Positions 4,653-14,290 are shown, numbered from the stretch's first letter. The stretch: DNA of 41,763 nt from Treponema sp. (GCA_012519415.1 JAAYQG010000076.1:1-41763), one strand, 5' to 3'. Notes: a model not told the origin generated them from the sequence alone. Numbers and translations are program-made.

Positions 4653-5843
4653 ATGAATACATTTACAGATTTACTGATACGCAAAAGTCTTATAGACACC
4701 TTAACTAAAAAACAAATAACAACACCAACAGCTGTGCAATCTCAAATAATTCCGGAAATAATGAAAGGCAAAAATGTGATTTTTAGTTCCGAAACCGGAA
4801 CGGGTAAAACATATGCATTTCTGTTGCCGCTTATAACAATGATGATTTCTGAAATAGAAACACAAAAAAAAGCAAACAAACAGCCAACACCGCAGCCCGG
4901 TATACTTATTGTAGCTCCAACAAATGAACTAGCTTCACAACTCAAACAAGAAACGGATTTTCTTTTAAAAGAAGAAGATTTTGATGAAAAACAAAAACTA
5001 AAAAGCTTGTTATGTATCGGTGGCACTTCAATTTCAAGACAAATCGAATCTTTAAAAAGCAAACCACAAATTATTTTAGGCGGTCCTGCCCGACTTCTTG
5101 AGCTTATTCGTTTAAAAAAATTGAAAACCCAACATATTTTTGCAGTGGTCTTAGATGAAGTTGATAGATTACTTTCGCCGGAACTTAGAGATATTACAAC
5201 AGAACTTATTAAATCAATAAATTCAAATTTTCAATTAATATCATGTTCTGCGACAATAAAACAAAATCAATTAAAAATTCTTGAAAACATTTTAGGCAAA
5301 TCTTTTGAAAACATAACAATGCCAAAAGAAGACGTGTTAAAACAAAATATTTTGCATTATGCACTTCATGCAGAACAGCGCAATAAGATTGACACTCTAA
5401 GAAGTTTACTCCTTGCAGAAAAACCGGAACGTGCTCTTGTATTTTCAGCCGAAACCGCACAAATTGCAAATATTGTAGAAAAATTAAAATACAAAAAAAT
5501 TAATTGCATAGGACTTCATGCTAAAACAGATAAATTTGAACGCAAAAAAGCTGTTGATGATTTTAGATCTGGAAAATGCCATATACTTGTAACAAGTGAT
5601 CTTGCAGCGCGCGGTCTTGATATTAACGACATAACGCATATTATCCAAATGGATGTTTCTCCCAATGAAGATTTTTTCGTGCATCGAGCAGGCAGAACAG
5701 CAAGAGCCGGAAAAACAGGCATAAACATTGTTATTGGCGATGAATATGAATTGCGACAACTTGCAAAACTTGAAAAAAAACTCGAAATTATAATAACCCC
5801 CAAAATGCTTTATAACGGAAAATTAATTACACCGACGAATTAA
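4653..5843 (+). CDS. DEAD-box ATP-dependent RNA helicase
   Basis: This family remodels RNA duplexes and RNPs in ribosome assembly, mRNA decay or cold adaptation. From ATG 4653 the protein has 396 residues. It shows an upstream aromatic (Phe4) and Q motif (TPTAVQSQIIP, 24-34), motif I SETGTGKT (45-52), Ia APTNELA (88-94), motif II as DEVD (168-171) rather than DEAD, SAT (199-201), motif V VTSDLAARGLDI and motif VI HRAGRTARAG. It stops soon after the helicase core, so it lacks the long C-terminal RNA-binding tail of DeaD-type proteins. An ATG at 4635 is a possible alternative start; longer upstream extensions overlap the divergent gene and are not supported. Its stop overlaps the convergent outer-membrane gene by 4 nt. 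Confidence 0.93.
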   Translation: MNTFTDLLIRKSLIDTLTKKQITTPTAVQSQIIPEIMKGKNVIFSSETGTGKTYAFLLPLITMMISEIETQKKANKQPTPQPGILIVAPTNELASQLKQETDFLLKEEDFDEKQKLKSLLCIGGTSISRQIESLKSKPQIILGGPARLLELIRLKKLKTQHIFAVVLDEVDRLLSPELRDITTELIKSINSNFQLISCSATIKQNQLKILENILGKSFENITMPKEDVLKQNILHYALHAEQRNKIDTLRSLLLAEKPERALVFSAETAQIANIVEKLKYKKINCIGLHAKTDKFERKKAVDDFRSGKCHILVTSDLAARGLDINDITHIIQMDVSPNEDFFVHRAGRTARAGKTGINIVIGDEYELRQLAKLEKKLEIIITPKMLYNGKLITPTN

Positions 5844-7414
5844 AATTTTCCAGCATCATAAGTTAGAGATAATTTCCATATTAAAGACGGACTCCCCTTG
5901 TAACCGTTTACCCTTGTAAATTCGCTGCCGTTTGTACCGAATGTTATTATAGGGCCGGTACTTAATTTAAAATCATTCAAAAATGAATATGAAATTGTTC
6001 CTTGAACTACGCCTGAACCGTCCGTTAAACTCAACATCGTATACAAATTTATATTACAATCTCGCACAAAAGCATCTGTTTTTGAAAGAGAAATAACAGC
6101 AAAATGTTTACCCGCATATGTATAAGAATTTTTAAGTTTCAAAAAATCGATTTCAGACAATGTTTTTGTATCTTTTGAGCCAAATCCATTGAAAAAATAT
6201 TGCCCCATTAATGTTATTTTAGGTTCTTTCCAAGTATAAGAAAAACCAGTCGTCGCCTGAAAGATAGTTTTCATATCTTCATATTTTGGAGTTCCTTTTC
6301 CGTTTTTTGTAAACGGAAACCACTGCTCTTCTGTTCCATAGGCGAAAACAAGCTCGGAAAAAGTCGAAACTTTTCTAATTCCGCCTGTAAGTGTCGCAAC
6401 GGCACGCGGGGTTCGCCCGTATTGGTACCAACCGCCAAGTCCGACTTCAAAATTTTTAACCAGCAACTCATATTTTGCAGCAAATGCCGTATATTTTACG
6501 TCTTTTTTTATGTCGAACGACTCATCTTTATCATTCTTGTTTTCGCCGGTTTTTATATCGGGAAGAACATAAAGCCATAAACAATTTTGAGTTCCCGGAA
6601 ACACAATCTGCGTGCGTAAAGATATAGCACCTTCTCGCTGTTCAGTAGGATTTTCCGGATCAACAGCTGATAAATTTATTACATCCGCAGGACTAAAAAA
6701 ATAGCCCACCCCCCACGTTATTGTATGTTTTCCCAAACGGAAAAAAATTCTTTCTTTTAAATTATAATCAAGAAAATATTCAAACCATGAAATTACATTC
6801 TTTTCATCTGGAAATACATTATCTATTTTATCTGTAAAAGGATAAAAAACAGGCTGAGGAATTTTGAATTTAGCCTTTGCATAAAATCTTAAATTATTTA
6901 CAGGACGAAAATCAAAATAAAAGTCCGATTTAATTTTTGGAACAAGAGAAAAATCTCTAAAACCATTTTTTCTATATGTTGTATTTCTGTTTTCATCTTT
7001 TAGCGGATCATACCATAAAAATGTTCCATCAAGTGTAGCTGAAAAAGAACAACCGAAACGAAACTTATTTTCAGCATAAATATTACTAATATCAAAAGTT
7101 AAAGGCTCTTCACTTTCAATAACGTTGCCTTCATCTATCATTGAATCAGAAAACATATCATCTTCGCTGAAAAAAGAATCATCGGAAGAATTATTATCTG
7201 AAATAATCATATCATCGGAAAAAAACGAATCATCATCATTGATTGCAATAAGCTGTTTTTCAACATCTTCACTCGAAAGTGCATCAGAATATTTAGTTTT
7301 TTCCTGAAAAAGCTCGAGGTTCACATTTTTATCAGTAGTTTCAGAATAAACAGAAAAACCGATTATAAAAAATATAAAATATAAATATATTTTTTTTTCA
7401 CTAAATATTTTCAT
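5840..7414 (-). CDS. Predicted outer-membrane beta-barrel protein of the Lol-like operon
   Basis: A 524-residue protein with a signal peptide (about 1-25, hydrophobic stretch YLYFIFFIIGFSVYS). A low-complexity acidic segment (about 59-99, DDSFFSDD-type repeats) follows, then a long run of alternating hydrophobic/polar strands with many aromatics ending in LSLTYDAGKF, a typical barrel C-terminus with terminal Phe. The stretch around RLGKHTITWGVGYFFSPADVINL resembles large barrels of the DUF1302 type; I cannot confirm that family. It is last in an operon with a LolA-like protein and LolCDE/MacB-like ABC genes, suggesting that it receives the transported lipid or lipoprotein at the outer membrane. 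Its ribosome binding site is GGGG just before the ATG. Confidence 0.8.
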   Translation of the reverse strand: MKIFSEKKIYLYFIFFIIGFSVYSETTDKNVNLELFQEKTKYSDALSSEDVEKQLIAINDDDSFFSDDMIISDNNSSDDSFFSEDDMFSDSMIDEGNVIESEEPLTFDISNIYAENKFRFGCSFSATLDGTFLWYDPLKDENRNTTYRKNGFRDFSLVPKIKSDFYFDFRPVNNLRFYAKAKFKIPQPVFYPFTDKIDNVFPDEKNVISWFEYFLDYNLKERIFFRLGKHTITWGVGYFFSPADVINLSAVDPENPTEQREGAISLRTQIVFPGTQNCLWLYVLPDIKTGENKNDKDESFDIKKDVKYTAFAAKYELLVKNFEVGLGGWYQYGRTPRAVATLTGGIRKVSTFSELVFAYGTEEQWFPFTKNGKGTPKYEDMKTIFQATTGFSYTWKEPKITLMGQYFFNGFGSKDTKTLSEIDFLKLKNSYTYAGKHFAVISLSKTDAFVRDCNINLYTMLSLTDGSGVVQGTISYSFLNDFKLSTGPIITFGTNGSEFTRVNGYKGSPSLIWKLSLTYDAGKF

Positions 7415-7428
7415 TTATTACCCCAAAC

Positions 7429-7543
7429 ATCGACTTTATAAACTCGAACAAATATCCATCCAAAGCAAGCATTAATCTTTTTTTCAATATTTTAATTTTT
7501 ACCAGCTTCGATACAGAATCATTCAAAAATATAGAAAGTCGAT
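7429..7543. repeat. 9-bp inverted repeat flanking the intergenic region before the barrel gene
   Basis: ATCGACTTT (7429-7437) and AAAGTCGAT (7535-7543) are perfect inverted copies 97 nt apart in the 139-nt gap. They could bring the ends of the intergenic RNA together or be two binding half-sites. No other clear signal is seen in this gap. Confidence 0.35.
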
Positions 7544-7553
7544 ATTCAGACTT

Positions 7554-8315
7554 TTAATTGAGCTGTTCCAAATAAGCTTTTGTAAAAACTTTGTCAGGTA
7601 TTGGCGCAAAAGACAAATCGCTTATAACCTGCTGTGTCTGTTCACCTTTATTTAATTCATCTCGAATAAGTGCCTGTGTTGAAACATAACCGGCAGGCAC
7701 TTTTGTATATTTTGGAATAAGAATTGTGCGCATGAGACGACCAGAACCTGAAAAATCTTCTTGTTTTAAAATCAACGGAATATCTTTCCTTATATAAAAT
7801 TTTGTTTTTGCATAAGACGGCGCATTTGTTGTTGCTTCAAGAGTAATTATATTAATTTCATATTTTCCCAAAGTTCCTTCTGAAAACTCCGTTACTTTAT
7901 AATTTTCTCTCCAATGATCGTCCGAGCGATTAACATCATCAATTTTAACATCCGAATCACCGAGTGCTTCTTTTATAGATGTGTGAGTAAATTTACGGCT
8001 TATAGGATCATAAGCCCAAATATTATCTCCATCACGCAAATACCCTGTACCTTTGTCTGCATCCGGAAAAAGCTGAACAATAGTCATAAGTTTTTTTTCC
8101 GTGCGCTCTAAAATCTTGTATTGAAGATTTTCCTTTGGTTTGCCGGGTTTTTCAATAACAAGTGAAATTGTAGCAGAATAATCTCCATGATATGCAAGAA
8201 TATCATCACTTTCTTCCATGATAGAAAAAGCTTTATCTGAATCTTCTTTTGAAACCTGCGCAAAAATATTGACAGCCAAAAACAAAATCAAACAAAAACA
8301 AAAAATTTTTCTCAT
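7554..8315 (-). CDS. LolA-like outer-membrane lipoprotein-sorting protein
   Basis: A 253-residue exported protein with a signal peptide (MRKIFCFCLILFLAVNIFAQ). The rest reads as a single beta-rich domain: ILERTEKKLMTIVQLFPDADKGTGYLRDGDNIWAYDP, then TLEATTNAPSYAKTKFYIRKDIPLILKQEDFSGSGRLMRT, ending with PDKVFTKAYLEQL. This is the pattern of the LolA-like 'outer membrane lipoprotein-sorting protein' family, a half-open barrel holding acyl chains in the periplasm. It lies between an ABC permease pair and a beta-barrel gene, fitting a periplasmic shuttle. It is longer than classical LolA (about 180 residues) and may carry lipids other than lipoproteins. Confidence 0.85.
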   Translation of the reverse strand: MRKIFCFCLILFLAVNIFAQVSKEDSDKAFSIMEESDDILAYHGDYSATISLVIEKPGKPKENLQYKILERTEKKLMTIVQLFPDADKGTGYLRDGDNIWAYDPISRKFTHTSIKEALGDSDVKIDDVNRSDDHWRENYKVTEFSEGTLGKYEINIITLEATTNAPSYAKTKFYIRKDIPLILKQEDFSGSGRLMRTILIPKYTKVPAGYVSTQALIRDELNKGEQTQQVISDLSFAPIPDKVFTKAYLEQLN

Positions 8316-8461
8316 TTATTTTCCCCTAAATTCAAAATTATGCGGCAATTTCTAAAAATTAAAATCATCGCTTAAATATTTGCAACGTTCATACAAAGCT
8401 TATGCAATGCGTAAAACAAAACAGTACAATACTGAATCGAATCGCCCATCGGCAATTTCAT

Positions 8462-9802
8462 TTATTTTATGGTTCTTAATGCTTCAGCCGGATTAAGTTT
8501 TGCAGCTTGTTTTGCACTTCCATGAACAGCAACAATCGTAAATAAAACAAGTAACAAATATTGAAACAATATGATTCCCGGTGTGAGCGAAAAAGTAAAA
8601 CGCCCATTATCCAAAAACAAAGACAAACTTTCTATATTTATAGGAATCATATGAATAACAAACATAACAATCAACGAAAACAAAAAGCCTGCGATAGCAC
8701 CAATCAAACATAGAATTACAGCTTCAAAAGTAAAAACATTGCGAGTACGTTTTCTGCACATACCGATAGCGCGGATTGTTCCAATTTCTCGTATTCTTTC
8801 ATAAAGAACCATTCTATATGTGTTTGAAACACCAACCATTACAATAAACAAAATCACAAGCAAAATTACAGTAGTAATTGTATGAACAATTGACAACACA
8901 GTCTTAATTGCAGGAACTTCATCATATAATGTTTCTACGGCATATTTTGTGCCAGACCAATTATGTTTTTTGGGGTCGACTTGTTTTTCAATACCTTTGC
9001 CGATATTCGTAGGATTCGTTCTCATCGCTTCAAGACGGCTTGTTACATTAACTCCGTCATTTCGGATAAGCTCCTCAATCTTTCTAGCAATTTTCGTCTG
9101 GTGATTTTTGTTAGTGATATGTATGGCAAATGATGAAAAACTTGCTTCAGGAATTCCAATCAATTTATTCAAAGATTTTATATCAGTATAAGTCTGCATT
9201 GAATTCAAAAAGCTGTTAGACTTTATTATGCCTGCAACTGTAAAATCATCAACATTGTTTTGTCCGCGAATAGTTGTACAAGTGAATGTAACAACATCGC
9301 CAACTTGCAAATTCATAGCTTCAGCAGTTTTATCACTTATTACAAGCGGATTGTGCATATTAAAATTTTCAGCACCGCCTGAAACAAACTGCATTGTCCT
9401 TACAAGAGATTCTTCTGTTAAATCTCTGCCGTACATTACAGAAATAGATTTTTTCCCTTCAAAAATCAGCTGACCGTTTACTATTGAATAATATGAAAAA
9501 GATTTATAACCTTTTATATTTTTTTCAACAAGAGTGCGTATGTAATTTTCATCACGGACGACAGCCGCTATAGTGGGAGCTTTGCCTTCCACATCAGACG
9601 GAACTATCTCTAATCCTTGAATTAGAACAGTACCGCCAACCATTTCCGTAATTTGAGCTTCAAGATTATTAACCATTCCTGTAATAAGCCCGTCTACAGT
9701 AGTAACAACAAAAAAACCGAATGCAATAGCTATAGCCAGAACGGCATTTCGTCTTTTTTGTCTTGAAAGATTTTTTAATGCTAAATTAAATGTTACGTTC
9801 AT
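8462..9802 (-). CDS. LolC/E-MacB type ABC transporter permease (second of pair)
   Basis: A 446-residue FtsX/MacB-fold permease: one N-terminal membrane helix (about 18-40), a large periplasmic domain (about 45-290), then three C-terminal helices including IVHTITTVILLVILFIVMVGVSN. After the second helix comes the typical cytoplasmic coupling stretch ERIREIGTIRAIGM, and it ends PAEALRTIK. Such permeases extract lipidated proteins or lipids from, or power substrates across, the inner membrane without moving them through a channel. It lies 9 nt after its partner permease. The pair with one ATPase recalls heterodimeric LolC-LolE. Confidence 0.9.
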   Translation of the reverse strand: MNVTFNLALKNLSRQKRRNAVLAIAIAFGFFVVTTVDGLITGMVNNLEAQITEMVGGTVLIQGLEIVPSDVEGKAPTIAAVVRDENYIRTLVEKNIKGYKSFSYYSIVNGQLIFEGKKSISVMYGRDLTEESLVRTMQFVSGGAENFNMHNPLVISDKTAEAMNLQVGDVVTFTCTTIRGQNNVDDFTVAGIIKSNSFLNSMQTYTDIKSLNKLIGIPEASFSSFAIHITNKNHQTKIARKIEELIRNDGVNVTSRLEAMRTNPTNIGKGIEKQVDPKKHNWSGTKYAVETLYDEVPAIKTVLSIVHTITTVILLVILFIVMVGVSNTYRMVLYERIREIGTIRAIGMCRKRTRNVFTFEAVILCLIGAIAGFLFSLIVMFVIHMIPINIESLSLFLDNGRFTFSLTPGIILFQYLLLVLFTIVAVHGSAKQAAKLNPAEALRTIK

Positions 9803-9811
9803 TTTTCTACC

Positions 9812-11350
9812 TTATTCCCTGCTTAGAGCCTTCAAAGGTGTAATTCTCAAAGCAGAACGCACAGGATAAAGATTGCTTAAAATACTTCCTGCTAAAGCAA
9901 CTGCCAGAGTAAGTGCAATAATCTTAAAAGTCGGACTAAAATGCAAAAGACCGCCGCCAAGAATCATTTTTGCAATACTATTTGTAATTGTAATACCTAA
10001 AGAATTAAAAATTGACATCAAAATAAATGCAAGAATAATTCCTATAACCGAAGAAACAACAGCAAGAAAACAGCTTTCCGTAAAGAAAAGAAGTTTGACA
10101 AAGCTTTTTTTTGCACCAATCGCACGCATTGTGCCGATTTCACTTGTGCGTTCAATAATACTTACTGTCATTGTGTTCATAATTATTATAAAAACAACAA
10201 CCGCAAGAATTATAATCAACAAATTGAATATAATTCCTATACCTTCTACAGTTTGAGAATAAGAATAAGCAGCTTTTTTCCAATTCATTGCATTAACATT
10301 TAGCCCTTCAGCTTCAAATTTCTCATTAAGTGAATTGATAATCTGCTCGGTTTGAAAAGCATGCTTTACTTTTATAATTATAAAATGCCAAGCACCATCA
10401 TCAGTCTTATTTAATTTATCACGCAAAGATGTATCGCCAAGAATTGAATTAAAATCAAGTTCTGTTTCGGCAAGGAACGTATCGTCATCGGGAATATCAT
10501 CGAACAAATCCGCATCAGAAAAACCGAACAGTTCGTCCTCACTTAATTTTGAAAGCGAAAGATCAACATTCTCCGGAAGTTCTTGGCTAAAAGACGAACC
10601 GTATGTAAGTTTTGCAAAAGTTCTTGCAAAAGCTGGATTGCAATAAACAGTCTGAAACATTGCAGAATTTTCGTTAAATGGCTTAAAAAAACCGGAAACT
10701 TTTGCTTCTCTTATAATACCGTTTGCATTAGCCCCAAGAACAAGAATATTATCACCTACGTTCAATGGCGTATCATAAAGTGATTCGAATGCCTTTTTAA
10801 GGCGCATATCAATCATTATTTCGTTTGAATTTGCAGCAGGAAAATCACCTTCTACGAAATTAATTCCGGAAAATGTATCCCAATAAGTTTTATCTTCGCC
10901 TGCCATAAGCTGAGAAATCGGCATATCGTAAAAACCAATATCATCTTTTTCAACCCATGCAGATAAATCAACTTCATCGCCGCCTTTTGCAAGCATAATT
11001 TGCGAAGAAATGAGTTTTGTCTTTTTTTCAAATGAATCGTAACTTTGGATTATTTCCTCAACTTTTTCAAGCTCTGCAATAGCAGGAAGCTGCGGAATTC
11101 CGCCTGCTAAATTTACAGTATTAACACCAAAAATATCGTTGATTTCGCCTTTATTTGGATTTGTTCCAATTACAATATCGCCTGTATAATTTGCACGAAA
11201 ATCTTTTTCAAGCCCTCGGTTTATTGATTCAAGGAACGAATTTCCAAGAATTACAATTGCAACACCAAAAATAAAAAAACATGAAATAATTATTGTTTTT
11301 GTTTTATGTTCTTTTAGATTTCGTAAAGCGAGTCTAAAAATTTGTTCCAT
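9812..11350 (-). CDS. LolC/E-MacB type ABC transporter permease with acidic periplasmic insert (first of pair)
   Basis: A 512-residue FtsX/MacB-fold permease: an N-terminal helix (about 18-40, IIISCFFIFGVAIVILGNSFL), a periplasmic domain to about 365, and three C-terminal helices with the coupling stretch ERTSEIGTMRAIGAKK, ending TPLKALSRE. Residues about 268-300 of the periplasmic domain are an acidic, Phe-punctuated insert (EDELFGFSDADLFDDIPDDD) not expected in LolC/E. A similar segment occurs in the barrel protein of the same operon. It starts 1 nt after the end of the ATPase gene, so the two are tightly coupled. Confidence 0.9.
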   Translation of the reverse strand: MEQIFRLALRNLKEHKTKTIIISCFFIFGVAIVILGNSFLESINRGLEKDFRANYTGDIVIGTNPNKGEINDIFGVNTVNLAGGIPQLPAIAELEKVEEIIQSYDSFEKKTKLISSQIMLAKGGDEVDLSAWVEKDDIGFYDMPISQLMAGEDKTYWDTFSGINFVEGDFPAANSNEIMIDMRLKKAFESLYDTPLNVGDNILVLGANANGIIREAKVSGFFKPFNENSAMFQTVYCNPAFARTFAKLTYGSSFSQELPENVDLSLSKLSEDELFGFSDADLFDDIPDDDTFLAETELDFNSILGDTSLRDKLNKTDDGAWHFIIIKVKHAFQTEQIINSLNEKFEAEGLNVNAMNWKKAAYSYSQTVEGIGIIFNLLIIILAVVVFIIIMNTMTVSIIERTSEIGTMRAIGAKKSFVKLLFFTESCFLAVVSSVIGIILAFILMSIFNSLGITITNSIAKMILGGGLLHFSPTFKIIALTLAVALAGSILSNLYPVRSALRITPLKALSRE

Positions 11351-12199
11351 TTAACGATTCTCCGTTTTATAAATGCCAGAACCTGTTTTATATTCATCAT
11401 TGCTTATTTTGCCGTCAAAAATATGAATAACATGGTTGCACATTTCTACAATTCGAGAATCGTGTGTTGAAAAAATAAATGTTGTTTGAAGCTCCGTATC
11501 ATTGTTCAAGTCTTTCATAAGCGAAAGAATCTGCGCACTATTTGTTGAATCGAGGTTTGCTGTAGGTTCATCAGCAAGAATTACAGGTGCTTTTGTTACA
11601 AGAGCGCGAGCAATTGCAACTCGCTGACGCTGCCCGCCGGAAAGTTCAGCAGGTTTGTGATTTTTCCAGCCGGAAAGACCTGTTTTTTCCATTAAAAATT
11701 GAACCCACTCTTCTTTTTGTTTTTTTGTAAAAGTATCTACGATACAGTCAATCTTGCTATTTTTAGATTTTAAAAGAAGCGGAAATTCTATATTTTCATA
11801 AACATTTAAAACCGGAATAAGATTGAAAGTCTGAAAAATAAATCCAATATGTGAGCGACGCAAAGCTGTAATGCGTTTGTCAATTGAAGATGGAATTGTT
11901 GTTTTAATTTTTTTGTCTTTTTTTTCGCTGTAATTGTTCAGGCGGTTAGATTCAAGATGTGTAAAACCTAAATCAAATCCATCATAAATATCTATACCAT
12001 CAATAATTATTTTGCCGCTAGTCGGAAGGTCAATTAACCCAATCATATTTAAAAGCGTAGACTTTCCTGAACCGGACGGCCCTGAAATTGCGGCAAATTC
12101 ACCCTTTTTTATATCAAAAGAAGCATTTTTTACAGCTTCAACTTTTTGATTTCCAAGCGGATATGTTTTGTATATGTTTTCAAGTTTTACAATTGACAT
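11351..12199 (-). CDS. LolD/MacB-type ABC transporter ATP-binding protein with insertion
   Basis: The ATPase of the two permeases encoded next. The 282 residues include Walker A GPSGSGKST (40-48), Q-loop Gln123, signature LSGGQ (186-190), Walker B VILADEP (206-212) and the H-loop STHD. Compared with LolD (about 230 residues) there is an extra, Lys- and Ser-rich stretch of roughly 38 residues (about 71-108) between Walker A and the Q-loop, and another stretch around 145-168. This is the first gene of the five-gene operon. The ATG at 12199 is preceded by GAGGAATTAA, a good ribosome binding site, and by a leader of about 70 nt. Confidence 0.93.
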   Translation of the reverse strand: MSIVKLENIYKTYPLGNQKVEAVKNASFDIKKGEFAAISGPSGSGKSTLLNMIGLIDLPTSGKIIIDGIDIYDGFDLGFTHLESNRLNNYSEKKDKKIKTTIPSSIDKRITALRRSHIGFIFQTFNLIPVLNVYENIEFPLLLKSKNSKIDCIVDTFTKKQKEEWVQFLMEKTGLSGWKNHKPAELSGGQRQRVAIARALVTKAPVILADEPTANLDSTNSAQILSLMKDLNNDTELQTTFIFSTHDSRIVEMCNHVIHIFDGKISNDEYKTGSGIYKTENR

Positions 12200-12400: not shown

Positions 12401-13051
12401 TTATGATAAATTAAAGCGGAAACGTCTTGAATTGTATATTTTAGGAATTTGCGCATTTTCAATTCCAATAAAAATTAATAAGGTAATTATTTTCAACACA
12501 AAAAGCTTTGGCTGCAATATTAAAGGTACCATCATTATTGGAATAATCATCATAAATAAATATGATAGAATGTTTGTGTTTTTTGTATAAAAAAGCATTG
12601 AAAACAAAAACGAATTATTTATAAGAAAATCGAAAAACATAAAAAGCAACAAAAAATCAAAGATGTTAAAAATGTTTGAAAATTCCTTTAGTCTAAAAAT
12701 AAGCAAAACAAAAACAACAACAAAAGACACGAGCTTTTTTCCAAATAAATACACACGACATGAACAGCCGCTGTTAATTAGAAAAATTGCACCGCCGGAA
12801 GAAAAATCATTTTTAAGCCCGTCAAACAAACGCTGCGAAATAACAAGAACACACATAGTCATGCTCAATAAGACATATGATTTTGATTTGTTAATTTCTG
12901 GTATGTGCATAAATTGTTTGTCAATAAGCGGCAGAAAAATAACAAAAGTTAATGCAAAAACGCTCAAAAAAAGACTTGCTTTGTTATAAAAAAGCTCGTA
13001 GATTTCTTTTTTTATGCTGCAAAAAATTGAGCTTTTATCAGGCACATTCAA
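12401..13051 (-). CDS. Membrane subunit of ABC-2 type exporter, permease B
   Basis: A 216-residue integral membrane protein with about five or six hydrophobic segments (for example ASLFLSVFALTFVIFLPLI, LVSFVVVFVLLIF, FLLLFMFFDFLI). I recognise no specific family. It overlaps the preceding ATPase gene by 14 nt and is last in a three-gene unit of permease, ATPase and permease, so it is inferred to be one half of the transmembrane channel. No clear terminator follows. Confidence 0.7.
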   Translation of the reverse strand: MNVPDKSSIFCSIKKEIYELFYNKASLFLSVFALTFVIFLPLIDKQFMHIPEINKSKSYVLLSMTMCVLVISQRLFDGLKNDFSSGGAIFLINSGCSCRVYLFGKKLVSFVVVFVLLIFRLKEFSNIFNIFDFLLLFMFFDFLINNSFLFSMLFYTKNTNILSYLFMMIIPIMMVPLILQPKLFVLKIITLLIFIGIENAQIPKIYNSRRFRFNLS

Positions 13052-13679
13052 TGTATTTTTCCTTTAATTTTTCAACTGAAAATTCTTCAATATTCTCGTT
13101 TTGAGAATTCCAAGAAATATTTCCGTTTTTTATAAAATAAATTATATCTGCCGTTTCTGCTGATAAATATAAATCGTGCGAAGTAATTACAATTGTTCTG
13201 CCGTTTTCTGCAACTTTCTGTAAAAGCTTTGACAATTTTTCTGCATGAACAGGGTCTAAAGAGCCAAACGGTTCATCAAGCAACAAAAGCTTTTGACTGC
13301 TTGCAATAGCAAGAATAATTGAAGCCATCATTATTTGACCAGTTGAAAGGTAGCGAACTCTTTCTTTTTCAAAATTTTCAGCTTCAAACAGCTCATAAGC
13401 ATATTTTACAAGCTCATTCTGTTTTAAGTCTTTGCCAAGCATATCAAGATGTTCAGCTAAACTAAAATGCTGAATCAAGCCGCCGCCTGCCGAAACATAC
13501 CAGCCTTCTGGATTTTCAATGCTTGACGGCAAAATGCCAGAAACTAGCTTTAGCAAAGTTGTCTTGCCTGCACCATTATGACCGCAGATAACAGTGATTT
13601 TATTTTCATTTATTTCAAAATTGATATTATTGAAAATGATTTTTCTTTTTTTATATCCAAAAAAAACGTTGAAATTCAT
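13038..13679 (-). CDS. ABC transporter ATP-binding protein of ABC-2 type exporter
   Basis: A compact 213-residue ATPase in the cytoplasm driving the two small permeases on either side. Walker A is GHNGAGKTT (about 34-42), the signature is LSTGQ (a Gly-to-Thr change from LSGGQ), Walker B is LLLLDEP, the D-loop GSLDP and the H-loop ITSHD. The layout resembles CcmA-like ATPases of small drug, peptide or antibiotic exporters. Substrate is unknown. It overlaps the next permease and lies 14 nt after the previous one. Confidence 0.9.
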   Translation of the reverse strand: MNFNVFFGYKKRKIIFNNINFEINENKITVICGHNGAGKTTLLKLVSGILPSSIENPEGWYVSAGGGLIQHFSLAEHLDMLGKDLKQNELVKYAYELFEAENFEKERVRYLSTGQIMMASIILAIASSQKLLLLDEPFGSLDPVHAEKLSKLLQKVAENGRTIVITSHDLYLSAETADIIYFIKNGNISWNSQNENIEEFSVEKLKEKYIECA

Positions 13680-13693
13680 ATTTACCTTCTCTA

Positions 13694-14290
13694 TTAAATT
13701 AGCTTCCGAAAATATAGTGATTTTTGTGCCATATTGACGGCAACATAAAACAAAACATTGATTGCAACACCAAGTAAAACAGTTAAAACAGAAGCCGGAA
13801 GTTTTGTAAGCAGCAAAAACAAAGCACCCATAATTAAATTTGACAAAATTATACCAACTGCTTCATTGCCTTTAGCTAAAATCAGCATAAAATACTCCAC
13901 AGGAACAACCATCATGCTTAAAGAAAACAAAAACAAAACTTGCAAAGCGTTTGAAATTTTAACAATTCTGTGAATTTCTCCTGAAAGCATAAGAATCATA
14001 ATTGCAGCACAAAACAGACATTTTACAAGATAATAATTTAAAAATTTAATCTTTGCATTGCATAAAAAAAGAGTGCCTTTTTCTCTTACATCTGTCAAAA
14101 AAGAATCATATATAAATTGTTGTACAGTAAATGTTATCCACCAAAAATGAAAATAAATATTATAAGCATCATGATTACGCTTAATAATAACTTTTTCACC
14201 TAAAATGACAAAAAAGAATAAAATCCAACATTTTGAGCTGTATACAAAATCTTTTATTTCTTTTTTGAATAAAATATCTAATTTTTTCAT
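13694..14290 (-). CDS. Membrane subunit of ABC-2 type exporter, permease A
   Basis: A 198-residue integral membrane protein, first in the three-gene exporter operon. It has a short cytoplasmic N-terminus (MKKLDILFKKEIKDFVYSSK, a pattern common in ABC-2 permeases) and about five or six hydrophobic segments, for example AAIMILMLSG, VLFLFSLSMMVVPVEYFMLIL and VLTVLLGVAINVLFYVAVN. The ribosome binding site is GGGG 6 nt before the ATG. It is preceded by a leader of about 150 nt with a strong hairpin. What is exported cannot be read from the sequence. Confidence 0.72.
   Translation of the reverse strand: MKKLDILFKKEIKDFVYSSKCWILFFFVILGEKVIIKRNHDAYNIYFHFWWITFTVQQFIYDSFLTDVREKGTLFLCNAKIKFLNYYLVKCLFCAAIMILMLSGEIHRIVKISNALQVLFLFSLSMMVVPVEYFMLILAKGNEAVGIILSNLIMGALFLLLTKLPASVLTVLLGVAINVLFYVAVNMAQKSLYFRKLI

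Follow-up and report, generated by a model that had tools for sequence, protein, structure and literature searches.

What does an operon do that couples a LolD-like ATPase and two permeases of the LolC/E-MacB type to a LolA-like periplasmic protein and an outer membrane β-barrel? The locus lies in a stretch of 41,763 nucleotides from Treponema sp., here called the window, and was read in an initial annotation, made from the sequence alone, as one five-gene operon. This reading holds: all five ORFs are found on the minus strand between positions 5840 and 12199, transcribed in the order ATPase, permease 1, permease 2, LolA-like protein and barrel (Table 1), and their linkage is conserved (see below). 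Permease 1 immediately follows the ATPase gene, and permease 2 starts 9 bp further on. Gaps of 146 bp (8316-8461) and 139 bp (7415-7553) precede the LolA-like and the barrel gene, respectively, both wider than the corresponding gaps of the nearest relatives (L069: about 3-25 bp); no terminator-like sites were found inside the five-gene unit. A small second ABC cassette, consisting of an ATPase and two membrane ORFs without Pfam hits (12401-14290), sits between the operon and a DUF4230 gene and is not present at the corresponding place in L069.

Table 1. Features of the operon; positions are counted from the first letter of the window.
Feature	Position	Strand	Evidence
LolD/MacB-type ATP-binding subunit, 282 aa	11351..12199	-	ABC_tran 4e-34 (Pfam)
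Permease 1, 512 aa, type VII ABC (MacB/LolCDE fold)	9812..11350	-	FtsX 4e-15; Foldseek MacB 8e-19, LolE 1e-17
Permease 1 disordered periplasmic loop, residues 250-307	10430..10603	-	pLDDT < 50
EDELFG peptide, permease 1 residues 271-276	10523..10540	-	F275 invariant in 66/66 homologues
Permease 2, 446 aa, FtsX/MacB_PCD, without loop peptide	8462..9802	-	Pfam; peptide matrix
LolA-like periplasmic carrier, 253 aa, signal peptide	7554..8315	-	PF17131 4e-33
Predicted outer membrane β-barrel, 524 aa, 18 strands	5840..7414	-	AlphaFold2 model; AlgE/OprD folds; hhalign 97.3%, E 2e-11 to RND-module barrels
Barrel disordered N-terminal tail, residues 22-105	7100..7351	-	AlphaFold2 model
Acidic-aromatic peptides in barrel tail, residues 60-90: DDDSFFSDD...DDSFFSEDDMFSD	7145..7237	-	F82 invariant, 42 homologues

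The identities initially assigned to the ATPase, the two permeases and the LolA-like protein are borne out by Pfam (ABC_tran, FtsX/MacB_PCD and PF17131, respectively). The ATPase carries an insertion of about 40 residues when compared with LolD, and the LolD model aligns with it in two stretches. Both permeases carry MacB_PCD and FtsX domains, the MacB_PCD match of permease 1 lying slightly below the cut-off, and the model of permease 1 has the MacB/LolE fold with a single long disordered periplasmic loop. The LolA-like protein has no lipobox at its signal peptide cleavage site, and its family profile matches the solved LolA-fold proteins 3buu (1.5e-28) and 9tp6. The barrel has no Pfam match, and a PDB sequence search with its profile gave no meaningful match; as anticipated by the initial annotation, its AlphaFold2 model (mean pLDDT 75.8) nevertheless predicts a barrel, of 18 strands and preceded by a disordered tail, whose closest solved folds in Foldseek are AlgE, OprD-type and other porins. 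BamA and TamA are absent from the top 50 Foldseek matches, and we therefore rejected an Omp85 identity of the barrel.

Do these five genes belong together? Among the 51 homologous loci that are informative, that is, have at least 5 kb upstream, 47, spread across Spirochaetota, contain all five in the same order; in three of the other four a recognised ATPase is all that is missing, and the fourth is an orphan barrel (T. vincentii, L102). Gene order is also retained in farther members of the phylum, including other classes (L243, L244, L246, L247, L248, L254). L253 and a second subfamily (L235-L242, L252) keep it too, but with no recognised ATPase upstream; in the second subfamily the ATPase gene is often convergent and the barrel more divergent. 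Unlinking of the barrel and LolA-like genes from the ABC genes in relatives, which the initial annotation had named as evidence that would speak against it, is thus not what we find. The first gene of the second subfamily can be Wzz-like (L238, L239; borderline) or an epimerase (L236), hinting at glycan-linked cargo. A single-sequence search detects the barrel in 56 of 145 family genomes and a profile search in 99 of 296 phylum genomes, where weaker matches may represent related barrels of other modules. Scanning of GTDB contigs with a single-sequence pattern of the barrel gave no matches, and an alignment-based profile scan recovered 75 loci, every one of them in a record named spirochaete, treponeme or Sphaerochaeta. 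One genome (G055) contains two copies of the operon (L070/L091 and L071/L107) whose barrels have clearly diverged; the tail of one of these barrels carries six DDDLFG repeats. Orphan barrels without adjoining ABC genes are seen in L081 and L086 as well as in T. vincentii, and in G050, G057 and G064 permease 1 is located elsewhere in the genome.

The initial annotation had suggested that the operon might be the treponemal route for lipoproteins. However, the window genome contains a separate permease-LolD-permease cluster on C77 (L006 7188-10526) and a PF03548 LolA on C163 (L008 1447-2118). With the NCBI LolCE, LolD and LolCE models the C77 genes reach 192, 253 and 214 bits and the window genes 49, 191 and 58 bits, neither set reaching the NCBI cut-offs (362 bits for lolCE, 308 for LolD), and the window carrier, which belongs to PF17131 and not to PF03548, scores 14.8 bits with the lolA model (TIGR00547). 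The C77 cluster and the C163 LolA are stronger candidates than the operon for the sorting of lipoproteins in this bacterium; they largely amount to the separate LolABCDE set whose presence elsewhere in the genome the initial annotation had listed as counter-evidence, and its proposal of a lipoprotein route is weakened. PF03548 LolA is moreover found in all 106 good-quality family genomes, among them a 1.1-Mb genome (G020) in which the barrel is absent and the best match to permease 1 reaches only 1e-12. The same genome retains an RND pump and a LolA-like gene (L164/L213) with no DUF1302-type barrel adjoining. As to LolB, no such lipoprotein is encoded among the five operon genes, the barrel forming the outer membrane end, but because LolB is identifiable only in beta- and gamma-Proteobacteria and absent from nearly all phyla (PMC11784454), its lack is uninformative and calls for no substitute. 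Thus, while the LolCDE-type ATPase and permeases, the LolA-fold carrier and the want of a LolB by name are what one would expect of Lol lipoprotein sorting with a barrel in place of LolB, the far higher Lol scores of genes elsewhere in the genome, the constant presence of LolA, its retention in G020 without barrel or permease 1 orthologue and the general scarcity of LolB make this explanation improbable. A role of the operon as the main lipoprotein route is possible but not favoured.

Which known systems, then, does the operon resemble? It shares with E. coli LolABCDE the ABC fold and a LolA-fold carrier, and by analogy it is plausible that the carrier is recruited specifically by one permease; it differs in having a barrel for LolB and a PF17131 for a PF03548 protein, and in existing beside a separate LolCDE/LolA set. 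Like MacAB-TolC it is ATP-driven and combines MacB_PCD with FtsX domains, but its ATPase and permease are separate genes, its barrel is AlgE/OprD-like, and neither a MacA adaptor nor a TolC trunk is found among the five operon genes. With a barrel at its end and LolB, MacA and TolC all missing from the unit, the operon is, as initially judged, neither a classical Lol nor a MacAB-TolC system.

Closer relatives are found among RND-powered modules. Most of the other treponemal PF17131 proteins that we examined are encoded in a three-gene unit of RND/MMPL pump, LolA-like protein and barrel. In the five-gene operon, the PF17131 gene adjoins the barrel gene in nearly all homologous loci. The barrels of the RND units carry a G[KR][QHM]..WG motif, and one of them passes the DUF1302 cut-off. 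Profile comparison aligns them with the window barrel family over 272 columns (Table 1), and one relative of the window barrel gives a weak DUF1302 match of its own (0.0034), which suggests that the window barrel is a distant relative of DUF1302-type barrels. Given the RND units and the barrel profile match, the operon is best read as an ABC-powered version of the RND-LolA-like-DUF1302 module. Cassettes of the latter kind are described in Proteobacteria, for example AmeABCD (Castellaniella defragrans; apolar monoterpenes) (PMC6394551). As in these RND (HAE3/MMPL) modules, an inner membrane pump, a LolA-superfamily protein and an outer membrane barrel with G[KR][QH]..WG are encoded together; different from them, however, the window pump is a three-gene ATP-driven type VII ABC transporter and not an RND protein, and different from AmeABCD the operon has no AmeC-like second periplasmic protein. 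A looser likeness exists to the Borrelia BBJ23-29 cluster, which also combines a MacB/LolE-type ABC transporter, a LolA-like protein and an outer membrane barrel (PMC13078400) and whose ATPase and permease are homologous to those of the window (1e-45 and 3e-22, respectively). The Borrelia cluster differs in having one permease, an Omp85 barrel (346 aa) and two TPR proteins; the barrel and LolA profiles of the window gave no match in it, including BBJ25, and a shared peptide is not evident. The authors who described this seven-gene cluster detected it in Borrelia only (PMC13078400). The architecture is thus different from the classical systems in its barrel end, as initially claimed, and yet has precedents in the RND-LolA-like-DUF1302 modules and in BBJ23-29.

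How would a soluble carrier find the components at both membranes? The same peptide, [DE]-D-[DE]-[LMF]-F-[GS], recurs in the disordered segments of both permease 1 and the barrel, with one or a few copies on the periplasmic loop of the former and one to several on the N-terminal tail of the latter. The invariant F275 of permease 1 stands in the context S-E-D-[DE]-L-F-[GSA], and the barrel alignment has its own invariant phenylalanine (Table 1). A position-weight matrix trained solely on permease 1 exceeds 8 bits in 73% of barrel tails; the corresponding fractions are 5% for barrel bodies, 1% for permease 2, 0% for LolA-like proteins and 4% for other ORFs. Owing to its small pseudocounts this matrix scores close variants such as DEALFG too low, and it is complemented by a regular expression for the simple core. 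Of 102 tails 87% contain this core, and of 85 loops 94%; after shuffling the figures are 26% and 24%, respectively. The expression also matches the conserved DKVF of LolA-like proteins, for which reason its LolA-like figure is no control. The tails that miss the core mostly contain close variants, for example ENDLF or ESALF. In a codon-level search of 12 whole genomes for [DE]3[LF]FG, 24 of 32 matches fall in permease 1 or the barrel, genes that make up about 0.1% of each genome. The sole match in the 2.45-Mb window genome is the EDELFG of permease 1, and three other genomes have two matches in all, one per gene. Distant operons keep the pairing in variants of their own, such as IDDLFADTS with LDDLFADSQ in L238 and MDSLFAEESDIFVEE with FDSLFSEAEDIIVEE in L237.

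But might the peptide simply mirror the generic composition of disordered envelope segments and have no binding role? Acidic tails are common and eight of the 32 genome-wide matches lie outside the operon, yet composition would not readily account for an invariant F275, for its near absence from permease 2, the LolA-like carriers and the remaining ORFs, for the concentration of genome-wide matches in the two genes, for the module-specific variants, or for the persistence of the peptide across classes. We consider this explanation distinctly unlikely, although in an acidic low-complexity peptide some of the resemblance may stem from convergent composition.

The variants differ between ABC and RND modules. 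In many RND pumps of at least 860 aa a loop around residues 545-625 contains a peptide that recurs in the tail of the pump's own barrel, as in the loop/tail pairs DSFFDDS with DSFFDDE, DFDDWGS with GWDDWGS and AWGDSTD with SWGDDSD, and these peptides differ from the ABC-module peptide within the same cells. RND pumps shorter than about 835 aa mostly have no such loop, and their barrels mostly have no tail. Triads of RND pump, LolA-like protein and barrel with a module-specific shared peptide are seen in L165, L168, L169, L191, L196, L210, L220, L230 and others. Among 22 non-redundant long-pump units there are 16 whose own-loop match beats at least 97.5% of shuffles, the failing units including truncated or mis-delimited tails. 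Automatic delimitation of RND tails is noisy. When ABC and RND partners are swapped within a genome, matched loop-tail pairs score higher than swapped pairs in all 11 genomes that contain both modules, which represent only three genera. In four near-identical close relatives (g15) the ABC tail-loop match is modest (18-22) and the RND pair carries the swap excess; in three of these the ABC tail even matches the RND loop better. That the peptides form an address code, in which pump and barrel of each ABC or RND module share a peptide read by their own LolA-like carrier so that parallel routes are kept separate, is a tentative proposal to which we give somewhat less than even credence.

Gene identities, conserved order, folds and the common peptide with its specificity for each module are all read from sequence or models; a direction of transport, a type of cargo and a reader of the peptide are what we infer. 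On balance we lean towards the view that the operon encodes an ATP-driven shuttle for lipophilic cargo between the two membranes, whose carrier would dock on one and the same peptide at either end. Extraction of the cargo from the inner membrane would be the task of the ATPase and permeases, an analogy drawn from LolCDE and other type VII transporters; the soluble LolA-like carrier would take it over and unload it at the 18-strand outer membrane barrel, recognising the same peptide at loading, on the permease 1 loop, and at unloading, on the barrel tail. Since the carrier must visit both membranes, it is the simplest candidate for the reader, and, with a different one in the RND modules, the peptide could serve as an address that separates parallel routes. 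A raised net charge of the carrier as explanation of peptide binding was rejected, since the mature LolA-like protein of ABC modules, with a mean net charge of -4.8, shows no such increase. The shuttle is not an easy fit for some distant operons (L247) or for some orphan barrels (T. vincentii).

Alternatively, loop and tail may bind each other or a common third partner and so bridge pump and barrel as in a tripartite efflux pump. An identical peptide at both ends, the AlgE/OprD-like open-channel fold of the barrel and the relationship to MacB are in line with such a bridge; the operon however has no adaptor gene, identical acidic peptides would repel, not bind, one another, and the LolA-like protein is the common component of all peptide-bearing modules. 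We regard a bridge as unlikely and prefer the carrier shuttle. As to its cargo, the separate Lol set, the hydrophobic compounds handled by RND analogues, the Wzz-like and epimerase neighbours and the AlgE-like fold together weakly favour a (glyco)lipid over lipoproteins.

The module type as such is already known in its RND form. Its ABC form with a DUF1302-type barrel, the phylum-wide linkage and, most of all, the matching peptides at both ends were not found in the open-licence PMC papers that we searched. The transport of lipids and glycolipids to the outer membrane of spirochaetes has been described as unknown (PMC11784454), and the operon, which is widespread in the phylum, supplies a complete candidate lipid route with an outer membrane end. 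The matching peptide offers a handle on how a soluble carrier recognises both membranes, one that would extend to the large class of modules driven by RND or ABC pumps.
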